DNA from: Lysobacterales bacterium
GTDB taxonomy: Bacteria > Pseudomonadota > Gammaproteobacteria > Xanthomonadales > SZUA-5
Reading direction: 5' to 3'
DNA: 58,662 bases
NCBI GenBank assembly: GCA_022844135.1
Contig: JALHMG010000036.1
Coordinates: 1 to 58,662, forward strand
Made by a program: the position numbers and the translations under genes
Shown here: positions 38,463 through 49,034 of the stretch, piece by piece
Layout: every line of letters starts with the position of its first letter
Numbering within the stretch: the stretch's first letter is position 1
Notes under the pieces: generated by a model
The model's input: only the letters and a program-made list of their open reading frames with translations
Told to the model about the DNA's origin: nothing
Database searches by the model: none

Positions 38463-38891
38463 CCGCCGTGCGCTAGTGTGGTGTCCCAAAAATAACTGGA
38501 AGAAATGTCCGATGGATTTCGGCCCGAGGCAAGCAAGTCCGTGGTGAAGCTGGGTACAGGCGACTCAGCGTCACGCGCAAGGTCAGTTAACGACGCCGTC
38601 CCCGCCGCAGCAGAAACTGCGCGTATCGATGTAGACAAGATGGGAACAATTGATCGCGCGTGGATTCAACCTTTCGTGGCTGCAACTCGCACGCTGAACC
38701 GTCCATCTGCGGCGAGCACGGTGTTCCCTGTTTGTATACGCCGGACCAGATCGAATGGGGCCACGTGAACGCATGGCGTCCGGCGTCCGTTTCGCTGTCT
38801 GTTTGCCTCGGACTTACGCGAAGCGCACCGCCGCCACACCGGCGCACGCCGCCATCGTTGTCCTGATAACTGCCGGGCCAGCAACCGCCGG
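38463..38891. other. 429-bp stretch without a recognised gene
   Basis: Several overlapping frames are open here on both strands, but none has protein-like composition, a ribosome site or a family I recognise. It separates the TetR/RND block from the kinase modules. It could hold a decayed mobile sequence, but no inverted ends were found. Confidence 0.4.
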
Positions 38892-39390: not shown

Positions 39391-41928
39391 TCAGCGGGAT
39401 GAATCCGAGGTTGGTGCTGTGTTGGAGGTAGACGCGGAATCTGGAGCTGCCGTCGGCCAATCCTCCCGACGAAAGGTGCAATCCTGTCGCGACGCACATG
39501 AGGCGTCGGCCAGCAGCGCCGCATAACGACCTGCATTGGTGCGATTCCCTTCTTGAGCGATCAAGCGTCCGTCGGCTTCTTCCAGCAGCGCCAGGGCCGC
39601 GCGGTGCTCGCCACGATCGAGCAGCGATTGTGCCAGGAACAAGCGGATGGCCATCGTCGTGTCGTGCTGCGCACCTGGCCCCGCCAGCGCATCGCGCAGC
39701 GCTTCGCTCAGCATCGTGCCGGCGCTCACGGACTGCGGATCCTGTTCACGGAGCGCTTGCGCCAGATTGATTCGGACGCGCAGCGTGTTGATATGGCTGG
39801 GCCCGGTGCTATCCAGCCATAGCCGCAGGCTGCGTTCCTGTTCGCGAATCGATTCCTCGATGCGGCCAGCATGCTTCAAGGTGAGCGCCAGACTGTTCGC
39901 GGCGCGCGCCGCCAGCGTGTTGTCCTCGCCATACCAGGCGCGGATGTTCTGATCCAGTGTGCGCGCCATCTGCAACGCTTCATCGGCGCGCCGCAGACGG
40001 ACCAGCACATCGATCCGGCGCAAGCGGGTCAACGCCAGCGCCGGGTGATCGGCGGGCAGGCTGGCGGACTGCCACTCGATACAACGATCGAGGATCCGCA
40101 ATGCCTCCTCGTAACGGCCGGACAGGCGCCACGCATCGGCCAATTGCCAACGCAATCCGGTGGCGCGGCGATCGCGCGCATCATTCGTCGCGGTCAACTC
40201 GAGCATGGGCTGCAACACCGCGATGGCCTGCTTCGGCTGCAGCATCTGGTTGTACCAGCGCCCGCGCAGCAGCGCCCACGCCGGGTCCTGCCGAACGCGA
40301 TTGGCGTGTAGATCGAGCAAGCGCCCGGCGGCCGCCAGATCGCCGGCCTCCAAGCGAGTTTCCACTTGCAGGCGCTCGAGTTCCGGCAGCATGCCGGCGG
40401 CATCGGGGTCCTGGCGCACAGCGGCCATCGCGCGATCGACACGCGCCAGCGCCTCGCCCGGTTGACCGATGGCCAGGTGTACCTCGGCCAGCATCTGATT
40501 GAGCTCGGCCTGCAGAACCGGGTGCGCGGCGAACTCGGAATCGAGACGCGGCGTCGCCGCACGCAGAATGTCGCGCGCAGTGACCGTGGCGCCGGCGGTT
40601 TGACCGGGATCGGCGGCAAGGAAGGCGTCGCGCAACACTTGCAGCGCCGCCTGCGCGCGATCGCGCTCGGCCGCCAAGGCGGCTGCGTGCAGCACGGCCG
40701 TGACCGCAAAGCCGATCAGCAAAGCCGCCAGGGCTGCGCCTAAGGAAACCACAAGCCGATGACGCTGCAGGAAGCGCCATACGCGATACGTAGTCGCGCC
40801 GCCACGGGCACGCACCGGACGCTGCTCCAGATAGGCGTTTAGATCGTCGATCAGCGCTGCCATGCTGGCATAGCGCTCGCCAGGCTCTTTGCGCAGACAG
40901 CCTTGCACGATGGCCTCAAGATCGCGATCCAGGCGGCGTATCAGCTCCGCCTTCCCGGCATAGCTGCGGGCACGCGCGAGCTCTGGCCCCGCCTGCGCGG
41001 CGCGTGCGCGCATGGGGGGCGGAATGCTGTCGCGCACCCGGCGTTCGGCCTCTGCCGCTGAGCACCCTTCGACATCGATGGGCAAGGAACCGGAGAGCAG
41101 CTCGTACATCAACGCGCCGAAGCCGTAAACGTCGACCGCGACTGTCATCGGCCCGCCCAGATGTTGCTCTGGTGCGGCATAGGCGGGGGTGAGACGTCGA
41201 TCTTGAGTAGCGGTGGCGAGGCTGGATTCGTCCAGCCAGCGTGCAATCCCGAAGTCGAGCAGCTTGACCTTGCCGTGACGGTCGATCATCACGTTCTCTG
41301 GCTTGAGATCACGATGCAGGATCAGATTGGCGTGGGCGTGCGCAATCGCCTGCGCGGCTTCGATAAGCAATCGTATTCGCGCCGGAACATCCAATTGCTG
41401 GGTATCGCACCAGCTGCGTATCGATGCACCCTCGATGCGCTCCATGACCACAAAGGGAACGCCTTCCGGTGTCAAGCCGCTGTCCAGCCACCGACAAATT
41501 CCCGGATGGACGCAACGCCGCAAGCTATCGACTTCGCGCTGAAAGCGATCTCGAGCTGCCGCATCCTGCGGCGCACGCTGCATCAACTTGAGCGCCAACG
41601 GATGGCCGGGTTGGTCGACCGCTTCGGCTGCGAATACGATCCCCATGCCGCCACGTCCGATCTCCGCGCTCAGCCGGTATGCACCGATCTGAGCGGGTTT
41701 TGTGTCAGGCACCAGGATGGCGGTCAAGGCAGTAGCGGCGGCCTGTTCGAGCGCGTTGTCGCTGACCTCGTGCTGGTGCCAGAGCCGATGCAATTGAGTG
41801 GCAAGCTCAGGATGGGTTGCCGCCAGTTGTTCAAGATGCGCCTTGCGTGCCGGCGCATCCATGTCGAGCAGGCGATCGAATTCGACCGCCAGACTGGCGA
41901 GTGCCGGGATGGATGGCGATGCGACCAT
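39391..41928 (-). CDS. Transmembrane Ser/Thr protein kinase with TPR domain (module 1)
   Basis: An 845-residue Hanks-type kinase. The order is a helical N-terminal region (1-80, with FDRLLDMDAPARKAHLEQL), a kinase domain (about 82-370) with GRGGMG at 91-96, the ATP Lys near 114, HRD at 205-207 and DFG at 225-227, a transmembrane helix (about 392-416), and a TPR-rich extracytoplasmic region to the end. All catalytic motifs are intact. Its start overlaps the sigma factor stop (TAATG), so sigma and kinase are coupled. By analogy with PknT-EcfP of Vibrio parahaemolyticus, it probably phosphorylates and activates that sigma factor. No anti-sigma gene is present. Confidence 0.93.
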   Translation of the reverse strand: MVASPSIPALASLAVEFDRLLDMDAPARKAHLEQLAATHPELATQLHRLWHQHEVSDNALEQAAATALTAILVPDTKPAQIGAYRLSAEIGRGGMGIVFAAEAVDQPGHPLALKLMQRAPQDAAARDRFQREVDSLRRCVHPGICRWLDSGLTPEGVPFVVMERIEGASIRSWCDTQQLDVPARIRLLIEAAQAIAHAHANLILHRDLKPENVMIDRHGKVKLLDFGIARWLDESSLATATQDRRLTPAYAAPEQHLGGPMTVAVDVYGFGALMYELLSGSLPIDVEGCSAAEAERRVRDSIPPPMRARAAQAGPELARARSYAGKAELIRRLDRDLEAIVQGCLRKEPGERYASMAALIDDLNAYLEQRPVRARGGATTYRVWRFLQRHRLVVSLGAALAALLIGFAVTAVLHAAALAAERDRAQAALQVLRDAFLAADPGQTAGATVTARDILRAATPRLDSEFAAHPVLQAELNQMLAEVHLAIGQPGEALARVDRAMAAVRQDPDAAGMLPELERLQVETRLEAGDLAAAGRLLDLHANRVRQDPAWALLRGRWYNQMLQPKQAIAVLQPMLELTATNDARDRRATGLRWQLADAWRLSGRYEEALRILDRCIEWQSASLPADHPALALTRLRRIDVLVRLRRADEALQMARTLDQNIRAWYGEDNTLAARAANSLALTLKHAGRIEESIREQERSLRLWLDSTGPSHINTLRVRINLAQALREQDPQSVSAGTMLSEALRDALAGPGAQHDTTMAIRLFLAQSLLDRGEHRAALALLEEADGRLIAQEGNRTNAGRYAALLADASCASRQDCTFRREDWPTAAPDSASTSNTAPTSDSSR

Positions 41929-42512
41929 TATCCTGCGCTCGATTCGCCCTGCAAGGCCAGGCGCTCGCGCAGAAAGGCACGTGCGAACTGCCAGTGACGA
42001 CCGATACTGCGCACCGAAATGCCGGTGAGCCCGGCAATCGCCTCGGCCTCCAGGCCGCAGTAAAGCTTAAGCTCGACGATGCGGGCGATCTCCGGCAGCG
42101 ATCGTTCGAGTTCGCTTAGCGCCTGCTCCAGCGCCAGCCAATCGATGCTGTCGCCCACTTGCGGATGCTCGTCGCAAGCAAGGCTGTCAAGTTCGACGAG
42201 ATCGAGATCGCCGCCGCGTTTTTGCGCCAGACGCTCGCGTTGGTAATCGACGATGACCCGGCGCATCAGCAGCGCCACCAGAGCGAAGAAGTGCTGCCGG
42301 TTGGCAAAGCCATCGAGCTGCTGATCGAGCAAACGCAAATATGCCTCGTGGGCGACTTCGGTGGCGCGCAGGGTCATGCGACCTGCCTGCTGACGCAGCT
42401 GCTGTCGCGCGATTGCCCGCAACTGCGGATAAACAGCTTCCACCAAACTTGCGCTCGGCGCATCGCCGCTGCTGCGCCAGCGCCTTAGTTCCTCGGTAAT
42501 GGACATCACCAC
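41928..42512 (-). CDS. ECF-type RNA polymerase sigma factor (kinase-linked, module 1)
   Basis: A 194-residue sigma factor with region 2 (VYPQLRAIARQQLR, RQHFFALVALLMRRVIVDYQRERLAQKRGGD) and region 4 (LPEIARIVELKLYCGLEAEAIAGLTGISVRSIGRHWQFARAFLRERL). It resembles the TIGR02999/ECF43-like group. Where normal ECF factors have an acidic DAED-like segment before the QETF helix, this one reads TLRATEVAHEAYLRL, with Thr47 and Thr51. In EcfP, phosphorylation of a threonine at that region supplies the missing charge. Start may be 42512 or 42506. It is coupled to the kinase gene downstream and divergent from a secreted-protein gene. Confidence 0.92.
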   Translation of the reverse strand: MVMSITEELRRWRSSGDAPSASLVEAVYPQLRAIARQQLRQQAGRMTLRATEVAHEAYLRLLDQQLDGFANRQHFFALVALLMRRVIVDYQRERLAQKRGGDLDLVELDSLACDEHPQVGDSIDWLALEQALSELERSLPEIARIVELKLYCGLEAEAIAGLTGISVRSIGRHWQFARAFLRERLALQGESSAG

Positions 42513-42790
42513 TCCCTGGCGTTGCTCATAGACGCATTCTCGTCGGGTCTACTCGGGCATCCGCTCGCCGCTGTGCGATTTGAGAGCGGCGAGATCGCCT
42601 GGCTGCCTCAGGGCCAACCTTCGCGCCGCAAGCAGCCGCAAACCGCGTGGCCGACAGTCGATTCGGATTCCGCGTAGCTGATTGGAACCCATCGGACCGA
42701 CCGCAAGCAGAAGGTCGGCCAATGGATTTTCTGCGCCGCCGCTCAGCGCGGCGCCTTGATTCCCTCGTCCTTTTCCGGAGCAATGATTCC

Positions 42791-43603
42791 ATGTCCAAAA
42801 CTATCCTGACAGCAACACTGGCCACTTTGATCGGACTTCCCTTCATTCCCGCCGGCGCCAGCTTGGCCGCCAACCCCGAAATTCCAGAGGCATTCAAAAC
42901 GCTCGCGCCGGATGTGAGCCAGTGGGAAGCGCTGAGCAACGGCTATTACAGCGGTCGAGGCAATAACGGCGAACTGGTCAGTGTTTATTTGGGTGAGCCG
43001 GGCAAGCGCATGGCACTGCACGAGTTGCGCAAGGCCCTGCAGGTGGCCGAAGGGCGCGCCGAGTTGGCGCCGCACGATAAGGTGCAAGAGGCGCAGAACT
43101 CGGTCGCAGCCCTGCGCCAGCAAATTGCCGAGATCGAGGCGCTGCCATCGACTGCAGGCGACGAAAAGCTGCTCGTCACTCAGAATGTTTCATTCACGAC
43201 CGGCTTGATCTGCGCACAGCAGTACTCGCTCAATTCGACCTTTATGGCTCGCGTTGCCAGCGTCGACACGCCGCGCGCTCGGGCTTCGTTGAACTGGTTC
43301 AACATCGGCCCCATCGGTCCGCTGCCGGCCTACGTGTATCGGTCGGTCGTGGCAACCGTCGAGTCCAGCACCAACAACGATTCGGCGAACAATATTTGGG
43401 AAGACGTGTCAGCAGAAGCCGTGACGATGACCTTTGGCGGCAGCTGCAACTACACCACGTATCACTACCTGCAGTCGCAATGCACCGATGGCCACAAGCC
43501 GACGTTCCTGTCGCTGACGCGGCAGCAAACGTGCGCCAATGTGCTGAACGGCGTGCTGCCCAGCGAATCATTTGGCTCAGGCGGCAACGATTTGGCGAAA
43601 TGA
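42791..43603 (+). CDS. Secreted protein of unknown function
   Basis: A 270-residue protein with signal peptide MSKTILTATLATLIGLPFIPAGASLA. The mature part has a short helical stretch (ELRKALQVAEGRAELAPHDK) and a likely beta-rich second half with four Cys (ICAQQY, GGSCNYTTYHYLQSQCTDG, TCANVL) and many Ser, Thr and Asn. I do not recognise the family. cggag lies 11 bases before the ATG at 42791; the frame stays open upstream without signal-peptide logic. It is divergent from the module 1 sigma gene across 278 bp, so it is a plausible target of that sigma factor. Confidence 0.8.
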   Translation: MSKTILTATLATLIGLPFIPAGASLAANPEIPEAFKTLAPDVSQWEALSNGYYSGRGNNGELVSVYLGEPGKRMALHELRKALQVAEGRAELAPHDKVQEAQNSVAALRQQIAEIEALPSTAGDEKLLVTQNVSFTTGLICAQQYSLNSTFMARVASVDTPRARASLNWFNIGPIGPLPAYVYRSVVATVESSTNNDSANNIWEDVSAEAVTMTFGGSCNYTTYHYLQSQCTDGHKPTFLSLTRQQTCANVLNGVLPSESFGSGGNDLAK

Positions 43604-43650
43604 TCGCCCTTGCCGGACTGGGCATCGAGCGTGTCTGGCAATGATGCGTC

Positions 43651-43682
43651 GAGATCAGCGCGGCTGGCGCCGCGCTGATCTC
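43651..43682. terminator. Perfect 14-bp hairpin between convergent genes
   Basis: gagatcagcgcggc-tggc-gccgcgctgatctc has a 14-bp perfect stem and a four-base loop. It lies 48 bp after the secreted-protein stop and about 157 bp beyond the convergent kinase 2 stop. There is no T tract, so it may end or stabilise transcripts without being a canonical terminator. The rest of 43604-43838 holds no gene. Confidence 0.6.
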
Positions 43683-43838
43683 ATTGAGATCCAGATCAAG
43701 CCTTCGGCTCGATCCAGTTGTTGCATTCCGCCAAGCCAGATCCGTCTGAACGTGACTGCCCAGCACTAACGCGGTTTCCCGTTGCCCCAGGGGCGCCCCT
43801 GGCGGCTGAATCCCGCCCATGAACCGCACTGCCAATCA

Positions 43839-46775
43839 CTACCGCATCGAATCAATCAACGCCGTCGCGGCGTGGATTCTTGGGCTGTCGCCATCTTCGG
43901 TGACGCGAAGTTCGGCGATGGCGATGGTCAGCAGCTCGCGGGCGCGCGGCACATTGCCCGATTGGGCCAGACATTGCGCCAGCGCGATCCGTGCGGCAGG
44001 CGTGCGCTGGTCGCTGCCATCGGGATCGGCGGCCAGCGCCAGTTCGAGCGCCTCGTTTGCGCTGGCGATGGCGGCCGGCAACTGTCCGATCTGGCGCAGC
44101 GCGTCGGCCTGGCGCGTGAGCACCTCGCTCTCTCGAAGAGGTTGCGGCTGCGATCGCGAACGCAGCCCTTCGAGAGCCAGGCCAGACAGGTCCAGCACCG
44201 CCTGGTGCTCGCCCTCGCCAGCGAGCAATACGCTCACTGGGATGGCGAGATCGATCAGCATCGGCGCCTGCTGCCGCTGACGGATCAACGATTGGGCAAG
44301 CGTCAGCGCAAGTTCGCGGGCAAGATCCTGTTCGCCGACCTGGGCGCGAATTCGCATCAGCTGTACGCCCTTGGCCAAGGTGGTGAGCGCTTCCGGACCG
44401 GAGACGCGCTGCGAGGCCGAGTACGCGGCGGCCGAATCGGCCAAGGCGTCGGGATACTGCGCCAGCCTGGCCAATACCGAACCACGATTGCCGAGCGCGG
44501 CCAGCGCGTAGGGGTGATCGGATTGACCGATGGCTTCGAAATGCGCCACCGATTCGCGATAACTGGCGAGCGCATCGTGCTCGCGTCCGGCGGCCGAATA
44601 GCGCCCGCCCAGTGCATTGAGATAACCGCCCAGGAGAACGCTTTTGCTGCCGATCCTGCGCTGCAGGTCGACCGCTTCCTTGGCGTGTTCGATGGCGGCT
44701 TCGTGCTGCCCAAGATCGCCCTCGATTCGCGCCAGCAGGGACAGCGCGTCGATGCGGATCGGGTGCGAGGGCGGTAGCCACTGCTCGGCTTCGGCGAGCG
44801 CGGTTTCCAGCCCGATTCGGGCGCCATCGATATCGCCCACCTTGAGTTGCAGCGGCGCCAGTTGAATGCGCGCTTTCGGCAATCGATATCCGCAGGCGAC
44901 CGGTGCTGTCGCGCAGATGGCGATGGTCTCTTCCGCAACGTCTCTCGCCGCGCCGATGTCGTCGCTCTCGCGCAGCACATTGGTGTATTGGAACAAGACA
45001 TCGACCGCCTCCGGCATCGCCTCGACGCGACGCGCGAACGACGCCGCGCGCGCCCCCAACGCCACGGCCGTTTGTCGATCGCCGCGTTGGCGAGCGATCT
45101 CGCTGAGCAGGCTCAGCGCCCGCGCCGTGGCCATCGGCCGATCCGCTGCGGTGCCGATTTCCAGTGCGCGCTTGGCGGCGCTTTCGGCTGCCGCCAGTTC
45201 GCCCAGTTGCAACTGCGCGAGCGCAAGAAAGGTCAAGCGATCGCCCGCGCGACGCTCGCTGCCGGGCAAGCTCACCGTGTCTTCCCAGGCCAGCTGCTCC
45301 ACCGCCCCTTTCGCGTCACCCAGTCGACCTAAAATGGTGCCGATCGTCAGTGCCGCTTCGGCCCGCGCTTCGGGCTGTTCGGCATAACCAGACGCCAGGC
45401 GTTGCGCGCCCGCGGAGACGATATCGAGCGCCGACAGTTTGAAGCCCTCGCGCATCGGATCGGCAGCGTCGAACAGCGACAGCAAAAAGGCGTGCGCGGC
45501 TTCCGCTCGTTCGGCTTCCAGACGCGCCTTCTCGGCCGCTCGCCAGGAGACGATGCTGGTGGCGATCAGCGCGAACAATACGACGCCGGCCGCGGCGGAG
45601 GCCGCCCGATGCCGGCTCAGGAAGCGACCGAACACATAGTGCCAGGCGTTACCGCGGGTGCGAACCGGATGCCCGGACAAATAGCGGCGCAGATCGTCGA
45701 GCAGAGCGTCGACACTGCCAAAACGGCGATCAGTTTCGCGGGCGAGCGCCCGCAGCGCGATAGCGTCCAGATCGCCGCGCAGCCCGCGCGAATCGACGCG
45801 GCCGCTGAGTTCGCGCGTCTCGCGCACAACAACACTGGGAGGACGACAGGGCTCATCGCTCAAGACACGGGCGCAGGCCATGGGCGCGCTATCGCCAGCG
45901 CGCGCGTACGGCCGTTGGCCGGACAACAGTTCGTAGAGGACGGTGCCGAGTCCGTAGACATCGGTCAGCGTGCTGGCCGGCTGGCCGCGCAGTTGTTCGG
46001 GCGAGGCGTACTGCGGGGTCATCGGCCCGTCGATTGTCACCGCGAGCACGCTGTGCGATGCCTCACCCAGAAACTTGGCGATGCCGAAGTCCAGCAGTTT
46101 CACCGTGCCGGTGGTATCGACCAGTACGTTGCCCGGCTTGATATCGCGATGCACCACCGAGTGTTGATGTGCGAACTGCACGGCTTCGCACAGTTGCGCG
46201 AATAGCCGCACGCGTTCCTCAATGCCGCTCTTGCGTTGAGCGCACCATTCGAGCAACGGAACCCCGTCGATACGTTCCATCACCAGCCACGGCGTGCCGT
46301 CGGCCTCAGCGCCGGCGTCGAGGAATGCGGCGATGTTGCGGTGCTGCAGGCGCAACAGAATGCTGCGCTCCATGGCGAATCTCGCGAGCGCCGAGCTTCG
46401 ATCCACGCCGCCGCGAATGCGCTTCAGCGCCGCTCGTTGCCACGAACCCTCGAACTCGCGCTCGACTTCATACACCACACCCATGCCGCCTCGCCCAAGA
46501 ACGCCGCGGACGATCCACGGGCCGAACTGCGCGGGATCGGGATTCGCGTCCTCCGCCGTGCCGATCGGTTGCGTCACATCGGCATACGCTTGCGCCACGG
46601 CGGCCGCCAGATCCAGCGGCTGCGCGTCCGCCGCCAGCATCGCGCGAAGTTCCCGCACCAATTCCGGATCGGCGTCTAGATCGCGCAGATAAGCCTCGCG
46701 ACCGGCCGCATCGAGATCGAGCAGCGCATCGAAGTGTTCGCCGATGTTTGCCAGCCGGGCTGCGCTAATGTCCAT
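43839..46775 (-). CDS. Transmembrane Ser/Thr protein kinase with TPR domain (module 2)
   Basis: A 978-residue Hanks-type kinase with the same plan as the 39391-41928 protein: N-terminal helical region (FDALLDLDAAGREAYLRDL), kinase domain with GRGGMG at 94-99, Lys near 118, HRD at 209-211 and DFG at 229-231, a transmembrane helix in the AAGVVLFALIATSIVSW region, then a long TPR array. The two kinases share the N-terminal pattern but are otherwise well diverged, so the duplication is not recent. It lies 62 bp downstream of the second ECF sigma gene. It likely senses an extracytoplasmic state through the TPRs and phosphorylates that sigma factor (inference). Confidence 0.93.
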   Translation of the reverse strand: MDISAARLANIGEHFDALLDLDAAGREAYLRDLDADPELVRELRAMLAADAQPLDLAAAVAQAYADVTQPIGTAEDANPDPAQFGPWIVRGVLGRGGMGVVYEVEREFEGSWQRAALKRIRGGVDRSSALARFAMERSILLRLQHRNIAAFLDAGAEADGTPWLVMERIDGVPLLEWCAQRKSGIEERVRLFAQLCEAVQFAHQHSVVHRDIKPGNVLVDTTGTVKLLDFGIAKFLGEASHSVLAVTIDGPMTPQYASPEQLRGQPASTLTDVYGLGTVLYELLSGQRPYARAGDSAPMACARVLSDEPCRPPSVVVRETRELSGRVDSRGLRGDLDAIALRALARETDRRFGSVDALLDDLRRYLSGHPVRTRGNAWHYVFGRFLSRHRAASAAAGVVLFALIATSIVSWRAAEKARLEAERAEAAHAFLLSLFDAADPMREGFKLSALDIVSAGAQRLASGYAEQPEARAEAALTIGTILGRLGDAKGAVEQLAWEDTVSLPGSERRAGDRLTFLALAQLQLGELAAAESAAKRALEIGTAADRPMATARALSLLSEIARQRGDRQTAVALGARAASFARRVEAMPEAVDVLFQYTNVLRESDDIGAARDVAEETIAICATAPVACGYRLPKARIQLAPLQLKVGDIDGARIGLETALAEAEQWLPPSHPIRIDALSLLARIEGDLGQHEAAIEHAKEAVDLQRRIGSKSVLLGGYLNALGGRYSAAGREHDALASYRESVAHFEAIGQSDHPYALAALGNRGSVLARLAQYPDALADSAAAYSASQRVSGPEALTTLAKGVQLMRIRAQVGEQDLARELALTLAQSLIRQRQQAPMLIDLAIPVSVLLAGEGEHQAVLDLSGLALEGLRSRSQPQPLRESEVLTRQADALRQIGQLPAAIASANEALELALAADPDGSDQRTPAARIALAQCLAQSGNVPRARELLTIAIAELRVTEDGDSPRIHAATALIDSMR

Positions 46776-46837
46776 GGGCAGACCTCAAATAGTCCCCTTC
46801 TCGACGCTGGGGGAGAAACACTGACAATCGGCTGGCC

Positions 46838-47350
46838 TCACGGCGACGCCAGGCCATCCATTCGTGCGATCAGGAATGCCCGCGCCTTGCGCCAATCGCG
46901 AAAAATGGTGCGCTCGGTCAGCTGATGCAGGTTCGCGATCTCGGTAAAGCTCATGCCGCCGAACACATGCTGCTCCACGATCTCCGCCTGGCGGCGATCG
47001 AGCGCGGCGAGCTGTACCAGCAAGTCATCGACCAGCACGATGTCGATCGGTTGGCCGTCGAACTGCAGCTCCGGTGATGACGGCGGCGCCAACGCGGTCG
47101 CGCCGTGTTTTTCGCTGAACCGGCGGCGCGCTCGATCGACCAGCAATTGGCGCATCGTGCGCGCCACCAGGGCGCGGAGATGCTCCGGCGCCATCGCATG
47201 CCGCGCCGCGTGCTGCGCGAGCTTGACGTAGGCCTCATGCGCCAGAGCGGTGGTATTGAGCGTCTCGTGCATCGCAAAGGGCTTGAGCGCGCGTCGAGCG
47301 AGCTGCTTGAGCTCGCGATAGACCAATGCCTGCAGTGTGGCGTCCGTCAT
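46838..47350 (-). CDS. ECF-type RNA polymerase sigma factor (kinase-linked, module 2)
   Basis: A 170-residue sigma factor. Region 2 has YRELKQLARRALKPF, HLRALVARTMRQLLVDRARRRF, and region 4 has LDRRQAEIVEQHVFGGMSFTEIANLHQLTERTIFRDWRKARAFL. The DAED-like acidic segment is replaced by TLNTTALAHEAYVKL with Thr30, Thr33 and Thr34, the same deviation as in module 1. Start 47350 (MTDATLQ) was preferred because ggg lies about seven bases upstream; 47356 is also possible. It is divergent from the delta-60 repeat secreted protein gene 133 bp away, a candidate target. Confidence 0.9.
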   Translation of the reverse strand: MTDATLQALVYRELKQLARRALKPFAMHETLNTTALAHEAYVKLAQHAARHAMAPEHLRALVARTMRQLLVDRARRRFSEKHGATALAPPSSPELQFDGQPIDIVLVDDLLVQLAALDRRQAEIVEQHVFGGMSFTEIANLHQLTERTIFRDWRKARAFLIARMDGLASP

Positions 47351-47483
47351 TTGCATCCCGTGCGTGGCGCTCGCCTGGCGGCGATCATCATATCGGAGCG
47401 ACCGCGCCGTCCGAACGGCGATGTCAGTATTCGGCGCCCGATTACGAGAGCGGACAGTACCCCTCACGGCACGGTCCCCGATC

Positions 47484-48908
47484 ATGATCATTCGTTTTTG
47501 CGTAGGCCTTTGGTTCGCGTTTTGCGTTGCGACGGCGATGGCCAACGATGGCAGTTTCGATATCCAGTTCGGCCCGAATGCCAACGGGATCCACGATTTC
47601 TCCCTGCAGTTCGACACCCTGCCCGGCTCGGTCGGCATCGGCCGGAAAGTCGTTGAAGTACCGGGACGCACGATATTCGAAGCACCGCGCTATTGGGTCA
47701 TGACCGCATACAACCCGGACCCGATCACCGGCGTGGCGAGAGCGGTCGCAACCGCGCGATTCACCAACAGCGGCCTGCTGGACACCACCTATGGCTCCTT
47801 CGGCATCGGCAAAGCGGTCACGGCGGTGAGCATGGATTCGGTGGTGCATTTCGCCTACACGCGCTGGCAGCGTAACGTTGGCCCGACGGTCACCGTATTC
47901 GATCGCATCTTCGTTCTCGGCAGCGATCAGTTCAATGGCAGCCCACGCTTGCGCTTGTGCAGCATCACCCCAACCGCCCAGCTCGATCCAAATTTTGCGG
48001 CCGGCGGTTGCGCCGGCTATCGATTCGAAGACTTCGGCGGAACCACCGGCGGCACGGTCTACGGCTTGCACGCCATCGGCGAGCTGCTTTACGTTGTCGC
48101 CGACCGCCGCGGCGCCAGCGGCGAGCGCTCGGTGGGCGTGCTCCGTGTCAACGCCGAGAACGGCACGATCGATACCAGCTACGGATTCGCGGGTTATGCC
48201 AGCGTGAGTTTTCCCGGCACCGGCCTGGCATTTTTCGCGCGCTCGACGCTGGACCCAAGCGGCCGGCTGGTGGTCCTCGGCGATTGGACCCGCGACGGCG
48301 TGAAGACCTTCGGCATCGCCCGGCTGACCAGCACCGGCGTTACCGACGGCAGCTTCTGCGCCGATGCATCGAGCTGCGGCAACAGCGCCGGCTTCCAGCA
48401 TCTGCTGACCGCCGCACAGATCGGCGTCGCCAACAACAGCCTTGCGAGCGCGATCGTCGCGGCGACAAACCGGATTTTCGTCGCCGTGCAGGACTCGGCC
48501 ACGTTCGGCAACGGCCATATCGTCGCACTAAGAGAAGAAGGTCCGCTCGCAGCCGAATTCGGACCGGGTGGATTTCGCTCGGTGACGACCACCAATCCGG
48601 CGCTGACCACCGAGATCAAGAGCCTGTACGCCACACCCGGCGGACGAGTGCTGCTGGGCGGCGTTGCCGAACTCAACGGCGGCACGCCGCAAGACAACCG
48701 GATGTTGGTCTCGCGACTCGATCGCCGCGGCGCGTGCGACTACGACTTCTGCCCGCGACTCGATGGGCTCGACACACCACGGATATTCGACATCACCGTC
48801 GATGCCGCCGGCCGCCCGCTGCTGCTGACCGACAGCCTCGCCAACGGCCGCGTCCGACTGATTCGCCTCGGCGTCCAGCAAGACCTGCTCAGCAACGGGT
48901 TCGAATAG
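47484..48908 (+). CDS. Secreted delta-60 repeat (beta-propeller-like) protein
   Basis: A 474-residue protein with signal peptide MIIRFCVGLWFAFCVATAMA. Delta-60-type repeats are visible: FTNSGLLDTTYGSFGIGKAV, PTAQLDPNFAAGGCAGY, NGTIDTSYGFAGYASVSF and STGVTDGSFCADAS. The C-terminus ends LLSNGFE, a short tail I associate with secreted proteins of Xanthomonadales relatives (recall, not searched). The start at 47484 was selected for the signal peptide. It is divergent from the module 2 sigma gene. Confidence 0.85.
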   Translation: MIIRFCVGLWFAFCVATAMANDGSFDIQFGPNANGIHDFSLQFDTLPGSVGIGRKVVEVPGRTIFEAPRYWVMTAYNPDPITGVARAVATARFTNSGLLDTTYGSFGIGKAVTAVSMDSVVHFAYTRWQRNVGPTVTVFDRIFVLGSDQFNGSPRLRLCSITPTAQLDPNFAAGGCAGYRFEDFGGTTGGTVYGLHAIGELLYVVADRRGASGERSVGVLRVNAENGTIDTSYGFAGYASVSFPGTGLAFFARSTLDPSGRLVVLGDWTRDGVKTFGIARLTSTGVTDGSFCADASSCGNSAGFQHLLTAAQIGVANNSLASAIVAATNRIFVAVQDSATFGNGHIVALREEGPLAAEFGPGGFRSVTTTNPALTTEIKSLYATPGGRVLLGGVAELNGGTPQDNRMLVSRLDRRGACDYDFCPRLDGLDTPRIFDITVDAAGRPLLLTDSLANGRVRLIRLGVQQDLLSNGFE

Positions 48909-49034
48909 CGTTGCGGCCACAGCATCGACATGCGTGATCGACCGCCGGAGGACCGTCGGATTGGCGCGCGTGTCAAGGAACTTCCGCCACATGGCGGCGT
49001 TCCCCTCGGCTAACGGGCGATTCGGCGTCGAACG

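Follow-up and report, generated by a model that had tools for sequence, protein, structure and literature searches.

Positions 39391 to 47350 of contig JALHMG010000036.1 (GenBank assembly GCA_022844135.1, a Lysobacterales bacterium) carry two adjacent modules, each of which combines an extracytoplasmic function (ECF) sigma factor of the ECF43 type (S1 and S2) with a membrane Ser/Thr kinase (K1 and K2). The stretch analysed, referred to below as the window, is this entire contig of 58,662 nucleotides, part of a genome of 5.34 Mb in 75 contigs. We put at roughly three in four the probability that these are two kinase-sigma sensor switches which evolved separately and later came side by side, that S2 acts mainly on an adjacent gene for a secreted-type propeller protein, and that the unit made up of K2, S2 and this gene was exchanged between related species. 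New in this locus are the difference in charge between two sigma factors, one pre-charged and one uncharged, the apparent recent exchange of sensor, sigma factor and target as one unit, and a putative promoter element present in single copy; the exchange and the single-copy element rest on few genomes. The locus is laid out as follows.

39391-41928, minus strand: K1, an 845-residue membrane Ser/Thr kinase (Pfam PF00069 and TPR_12, motifs, hydropathy, PDB match 9EED)
41928-42506, minus strand: S1, a 192-residue ECF43-type sigma factor (TIGR02999, 162 bits; alignments)
42791-43603, plus strand: gene for a 270-residue protein, divergent from S1 (the start at 42791 gives a signal-peptide-like N-terminus)
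43839-46775, minus strand: K2, a 978-residue membrane Ser/Thr kinase with a C-terminal TPR part (Pfam, motifs, PDB match 9EED)
46838-47350, minus strand: S2, a 170-residue ECF43-type sigma factor (TIGR02999, 132.5 bits; alignments)
47420-47433, plus strand: candidate -35-type promoter element GATGTCAGTATTCG, 51-64 bases 5' of the propeller-gene ATG
47484-48908, plus strand: 474-residue secreted-type propeller gene, proposed target of S2 (PF17164; kept with S2 and K2 in genomes G001 and G031)
43839-48914, strand not applicable: 5.08 kb unit of K2, S2 and the propeller gene, 97.2% identical to a congener, where it has other neighbours

Gene calls bore out the coordinates and gene order given in a preliminary description of this DNA: on the minus strand S1 is followed by K1, with which it shares one base, and S2 by K2, and two secreted-type genes lie on the plus strand. 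The 42791-43603 gene is the sole additional gene placed between 39391 and 47350 by the simple caller used, which preferred for it a start at 42722 that lacks the signal peptide; S2 has an alternative ATG start at 47356. Pfam and a motif check agree with the earlier statement that each sigma factor adjoins a membrane kinase with intact catalytic motifs. The claim that an anti-sigma gene is absent likewise stands as far as the gene calls and the Pfam and NCBIfam matches for 39391-47350 are concerned, no dedicated anti-sigma search having been made.

Both sigma factors exceed the curated TIGR02999 cut-off of 126.15 bits, both also match PF07638, and both end soon after region 4. We take TIGR02999 to correspond to ECF43. 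According to one report, no ECF43 member has the DAED motif, activation by a neighbouring kinase is presumed for them, and EcfP is phosphorylated at the second Thr of STTA (PMC8999054). The proposal that Thr replaces the DAED-like segment in the window is correct for T49 of S1, within TLRATEVAHEAY, and for the aligned T34 of S2, within TLNTTALAHEAY, except that in S1 the Thr is immediately followed by an acidic residue, E50; the region 2.2 motif is RATE in S1 and NTTA, without an acidic residue, in S2. In an alignment of 108 distinct sigma factors from the loci collected (picked by best hits, not at random), 104 have Thr at this position and 2 have Ser, while Arg and Ala occur once each. Its presence is not a matter of chance, because 23 of 25 such sigma factors in the window's own genome (G000) have Thr there. 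An acidic residue directly follows the Thr in 35 of the 108 sampled sigma factors and in 9 of the 25 from the own genome, S1 included.

A second published switch lies in the linker of Xanthomonas citri EcfK, for which one report describes phosphorylation by PknS at T51 and at four linker residues including T106, and retention of function in X. citri by a T51A variant (PMC13147305). We placed the equivalent of T106 through the 55-residue spacing from T51, which one family member reproduces. At this position S1 has Glu (LVELDSL), S2 has Pro (APPSSPE) and the S2 orthologue of G031 has Gln (VPQEWAE), a phosphorylatable Ser/Thr being absent from S1 and S2, and 74 of the 108 sigma factors have S, T, D or E. 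Judged from these residues, S2 seems to rely on one site, as EcfP does, and S1 seems to be pre-charged near both EcfK sites. The two sigma factors may thus differ in kinase dependence, and their earlier treatment as alike does not survive: S1 is of the EcfK type (RATE, linker Glu) and S2 of the EcfP type (NTTA). By analogy, leaky activity of S1 without its kinase is plausible, because EcfK T51A stays functional (PMC13147305).

Taken further, the same residues could make S1 largely constitutive, with the Glu side chains supplying the charge and K1 only tuning S1 or serving another substrate. We consider this rather unlikely. RATE, the Glu at the T106-aligned position and the behaviour of EcfK T51A (PMC13147305) are all consistent with it, as is the make-up of the S1 clade (14 sigma factors, support 0.90), five members of which (L047, L055, L057, L058 and L059) have no assigned kinase, L057 and L058 being cut by contig ends. 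Because members L193 and L194 lie in longer loci that also lack a K1-like kinase, S1 may be able to do without K1. Against this stand the one-base overlap of the S1 and K1 genes and the Thr that S1 retains. Nor does an acidic residue follow the Thr significantly more often where no kinase was assigned (11 of 25 sigma factors) than in the other sigma factors (24 of 83; Fisher p 0.22), and we rejected it as a mark of kinase-less sigma factors; kinase absence in those 25 is uncertain because most of their loci have about 1.5 kb of flank or reach a contig end.

Several relatives show the switch altered. An own-genome ECF43-type sigma factor on contig C5 (29081-29635; L042 7582-8136, minus strand) reads NTRA, with Arg replacing the phospho-Thr, and has no assigned kinase, an opposite-strand kinase gene lying two genes off. 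At L080 1408-2040, a sigma factor with Ala at the site (QPAA) is followed by a kinase with HCD replacing HRD, and at L047 (C13:96405-97380) an S1-clade sigma factor (RSTE) is followed by a kinase gene that is apparently broken or truncated. The own-genome sigma factor at C24:43419 has a kinase alongside; for its orthologue in G001, a congener (L179 4866-5470, 92% protein identity), no kinase frame of at least 180 residues was found in L179 3500-10001. The C5 NTRA sigma factor and this kinase-less orthologue are natural tests of switch removal.

The kinases resemble PknS-type receptor kinases in their Hanks motifs, one transmembrane segment, C-terminal TPRs and N-terminal extension. K1 consists of an extension of about 83 residues, a kinase domain (84-359), a hydrophobic segment near residue 390 and a C-terminal TPR part. 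All catalytic motifs are present in K1 and K2 (glycine loop, ALK lysine, HRDxKP, DFG and TPxYxxPE), and both have a single hydrophobic segment near residue 390, membrane topology being derived from hydropathy alone. Of the periplasmic TPR sensor described earlier, the C-terminal TPRs are confirmed by Pfam, and we infer their periplasmic placement. The kinase domains of K1 and K2 are 40% identical, and the best PDB match of both is 9EED (K1 E 1.8e-41, K2 E 6.1e-47), which is published as the structure of the PknS kinase domain (PMC13147305).

The two modules are only distantly related. S1 and S2 are 32% identical, and in a tree of the 108 sigma factors each ranks 24th of 24 in distance from the other among the own-genome sigma factors. 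This fits the earlier description of two diverged modules side by side, and on the same ranking we rejected tandem duplication of one module. The best match to S1 among 40 relatives is 52% identical, and the best in G001 is 47%. Relatives of S2 were sought with two peptide patterns only, which gave 3 confirmed of 325 stretches; L170, from a Deltaproteobacteria metagenome-assembled genome, is 42% identical.

Evidence for exchange comes from G001, in which the window segment 43839-48914 has a counterpart on contig C8 with 97.2% identity over 5085 bp. Similarity ends at the K2 stop codon on one side and six bases past the propeller gene on the other, and the flanks differ on both sides. Differences at fourfold-degenerate sites amount to 41 of 586 in K2, 8 of 95 in S2 and 15 of 285 in the propeller gene (5-8%), compared with 46-62% in nine other window genes (19.4-31.3 kb), namely those with a counterpart in the G001 loci examined; of the 130 intergenic bases of the unit, 4 differ. 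From this gap between 5-8% and 46-62%, the K2-S2-propeller unit appears to have been recently exchanged horizontally between related species. A second own-genome module, at C22:890-7256 (L049; secreted NGFE protein, sigma factor and kinase), shares 95.0% identity with G001 across 6380 bp, and eight others are 69-88% identical, the remainder being weaker or unmatched, in a partial comparison with 16 G001 loci (two of them contiguous) out of a genome with at least 20 such sigma factors. Beside the exchanged unit in G001 lies a gene (L114 191-2323), presumably FG-GAP-like, that ends in NGFE and is 98% identical to C41:40394-42475 of the own genome.

The propeller protein, of 474 residues, is of a secreted type, carries the delta-60/DUF5122 repeat and ends in NGFE; it matches PF17164 above and TIGR02608 below the cut-off. 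Its structure model is all-beta (mean predicted local distance difference test score, pLDDT, 72; predicted template-modelling score 0.79), with weak PDB fold matches (template-modelling score up to 0.6). The gene is linked to S2 and K2 in both G001 and G031; in G031 the homologue, 36-38% identical, lies downstream of the kinase. Comparison of the regions upstream of the propeller gene and its G031 homologue gave the shared element GCGATGTCAG-NN-TTCG, identical at 14 of 16 positions and lying at similar distances from the start, 66 bases in the own genome and 62 in G031. A match of 14/16 was reached by shuffled sequence in 4 of 1000 trials and by none of 277 other upstream regions. In scans for exact copies, the 12-base core GATGTCAG-NN-TTCG occurs once each in G000, G001 and G031, before the propeller gene or its homologue, and the reversed-pattern control gave 0. 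Uniqueness rather than presence is the result here, because the pattern was derived from these same loci. S2 autoregulation through the same element was rejected, as none of the three genomes has a second exact copy. The propeller gene is probably under the control of S2, with the GATGTCAGTATTCG region as a candidate single-target promoter.

TPR and propeller domains often bind proteins, and the secreted neighbours, instead of being sigma targets, could serve the TPR domains as ligands or sensor partners. The persistence of the propeller gene beside K2 and S2 in the congener and in G031 would be expected of such a partner. The single-copy element nonetheless precedes the propeller gene in three genomes, even in G031, where the gene is downstream of the kinase, and we think it unlikely that the ligand role replaces the target role, although the two are compatible with each other.

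The other secreted-type gene of the locus, at 42791-43603, is a possible S1 target by position only. Its product has no Pfam or NCBIfam match, no homologue besides the own copy was found in 299 genomes of the order (E <= 1e-4), and its DNA was not found in G001.

Kinases and sigma factors appear to have diverged together. The correlation between sigma and kinase distances is r 0.58 for the own-genome pairs (n = 21, p 0.0002), r 0.35 (n = 20, p 0.0002) once one copy of a near-identical tandem pair of modules is dropped, and r 0.56 (p 0.001) for 81 distinct pairs, after removal of 8 of 89 as duplicate loci (for example L168/L113 and L169/L115). With duplicates still included, 13 of 21 own-genome sigma factors had their true kinase in first place; the profile value of S2, 0.915 with its duplicate orthologues, fell to 0.18 once they were removed. 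These correlations support inheritance of sigma factors and kinases as pairs, as a set, and are no proof of specificity. For S1 and S2 themselves the profile fails to single out the own kinase of either. The question of insulation or cross-talk raised in the preliminary description is larger than it was put there, given the 25 such sigma factors in the genome.

A cross-talking pair, in which K1 and K2 each act on both sigma factors and the four proteins form a small network, is in our view distinctly unlikely. The kinase domains do belong to one family, with PknS the nearest solved relative of both, and S1 and S2 have the Thr motif in common, which together with the indecisive profiles would allow such sharing. 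Yet the two sigma factors are mutually the most distant of their genome, in which the exact S2 element occurs nowhere else, and the congener that retains the S2 unit offers no S1 match above 47%. Retention of the S2 unit there, where S1 has no close relative, is the best clue that the unit acts on its own.

Several points weigh against the reading of two separate switches with S2 acting on the propeller gene. At least four other upstream regions reach 13/16, compared with 14/16 at the propeller gene; the support for the element comes from two independent lineages, with G000 and G001 counted as one, and these lineages also served to define it; and no -10 part of the candidate promoter emerged from the upstream comparison. 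The distance profile ranks the own kinase 5th of 21 for S1 and 9th of 21 for S2, and the L193 and L194 loci that lack a K1-like kinase extend over 7.7 and 8.4 kb. The T106-aligned position sits in a poorly conserved linker, the single-sequence structure model of K1 was poor (mean pLDDT 49) and was not used, and some of the nine genes compared with G001, those matching L135, may be paralogues.

With these points taken into account, the mechanism we favour would run as follows. The TPR part of the kinase, presumably periplasmic, would sense an envelope or extracellular cue; the cytoplasmic kinase domain would autophosphorylate and then phosphorylate the adjoining sigma factor, at T34 in S2 and T49 in S1; and the charge of the phosphate would let the sigma factor bind core RNA polymerase, a step published for EcfP and partly for EcfK. 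S2 would behave like EcfP and, lacking both an acidic site residue and a second switch, would be inactive without K2, whereas S1, with Glu both beside its Thr and where EcfK has its second, linker switch, would for that reason be EcfK-like or leakier. Acting through the TGTCAG-type element at 47420, S2 would most likely activate mainly one gene, the divergent propeller gene at 47484. The separately evolved units would have become neighbours, and the K2-S2-propeller unit would have been swapped recently between related species.

Modules of this kind are numerous. The own genome has 25 matches above the TIGR02999 cut-off and 65 PF00069 matches, some genes having two; a kinase lies directly downstream on the same strand of 20 of these sigma factors, divergently from 1 and upstream on the same strand of 2, one of these upstream kinases belonging to another module, and for the remaining 2 none was found within the distance limits used. 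Sigma factors some 3-6 kb apart are also present on contigs C22, C24 and C8, and across the order 112 of 150 genomes have a match at E <= 1e-36, with several other genomes at 20 or more in a tally that scored at most 20 candidates per genome. Number and adjacency are thus not peculiar to the window, since close pairs occur elsewhere and matches are common in the order; the remarkable feature is how far apart S1 and S2 are in the tree.

More tentatively, and with considerable doubt, the ECF43 modules of the order might be self-contained exchangeable circuits, each with a kinase, a sigma factor and one target with a private promoter, that pass between species as whole units; separate kinase interfaces and separate promoters would allow some 25 of them to coexist in a cell, and the window would hold two such units from far-apart branches, side by side. 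One-target cassettes, if real, would be useful as orthogonal switches. In the limited literature surveyed, nothing on topic was found about horizontal transfer or orthogonality of ECF-kinase modules, or about such modules in Lysobacter. For the question of how natural kinase-sigma pairs in this group are kept insulated, a genome with 25 such sigma factors, two of them neighbours from distant branches and one travelling with a single candidate promoter, is a ready test set for kinase-sigma and sigma-promoter specificity, within which S1 and S2 form a natural contrast of a pre-charged and an uncharged sigma factor.

Two further observations concern the surroundings of these genes. C-terminal GFE preceded by N, D, S or G, as at window positions 48894-48908, has 76 matches in the own genome and 2 for the reversed control, and many such proteins near ECF43 modules have a signal-peptide-like start. 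The tail is perhaps a C-terminal signal, a subject on which a literature search found nothing. A link between ECF43 modules and NGFE proteins was rejected, as 7 of the 76 sites, counted by eye, lie within 6 kb of the 25 sigma factors and about 4 are expected by simple arithmetic, no clear enrichment. At about 38471-38533, beside a TetR-like gene, the window has a dispersed repeat, some 62 bases long, of which G001 contains many copies.

Among known systems, the comparison with PknT-EcfP drawn in the preliminary description is apt and names the right family; the mechanism has, however, already been published for this sigma group, for EcfP and for EcfK, and by sequence both modules have the ECF43 arrangement and would be instances of it (EcfP/PknT; EcfK/PknS). 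EcfK-PknS of X. citri belongs to the same wider group (ECF43, Xanthomonadales/Lysobacterales). PknS, like K1, is a membrane Hanks kinase with TPRs, the two having 833 and 845 residues and extensions of 83 and about 83, and EcfK resembles S1 in its motif (QATE and RATE, with Glu beside the Thr). EcfK differs in governing a type VI secretion cluster, whereas the window modules adjoin single secreted-type genes, and in its linker T106, replaced by Glu in S1 and Pro in S2 at the position set by spacing. EcfP-PknT of Vibrio parahaemolyticus, also ECF43, is closer to S2 (STTA and NTTA, the EcfP motif being compared by description), with an adjoining kinase and no anti-sigma factor; its output is polymyxin resistance, whereas S2 appears to serve mainly one adjacent propeller gene. 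The ECF41 sigma factors offer a parallel of another kind, with TGTC at -35 and the neighbouring gene as sole target (PMC3426412), but they are controlled by a fused C-terminal domain and not by a kinase, whereas little sequence follows region 4 in S1 and S2.

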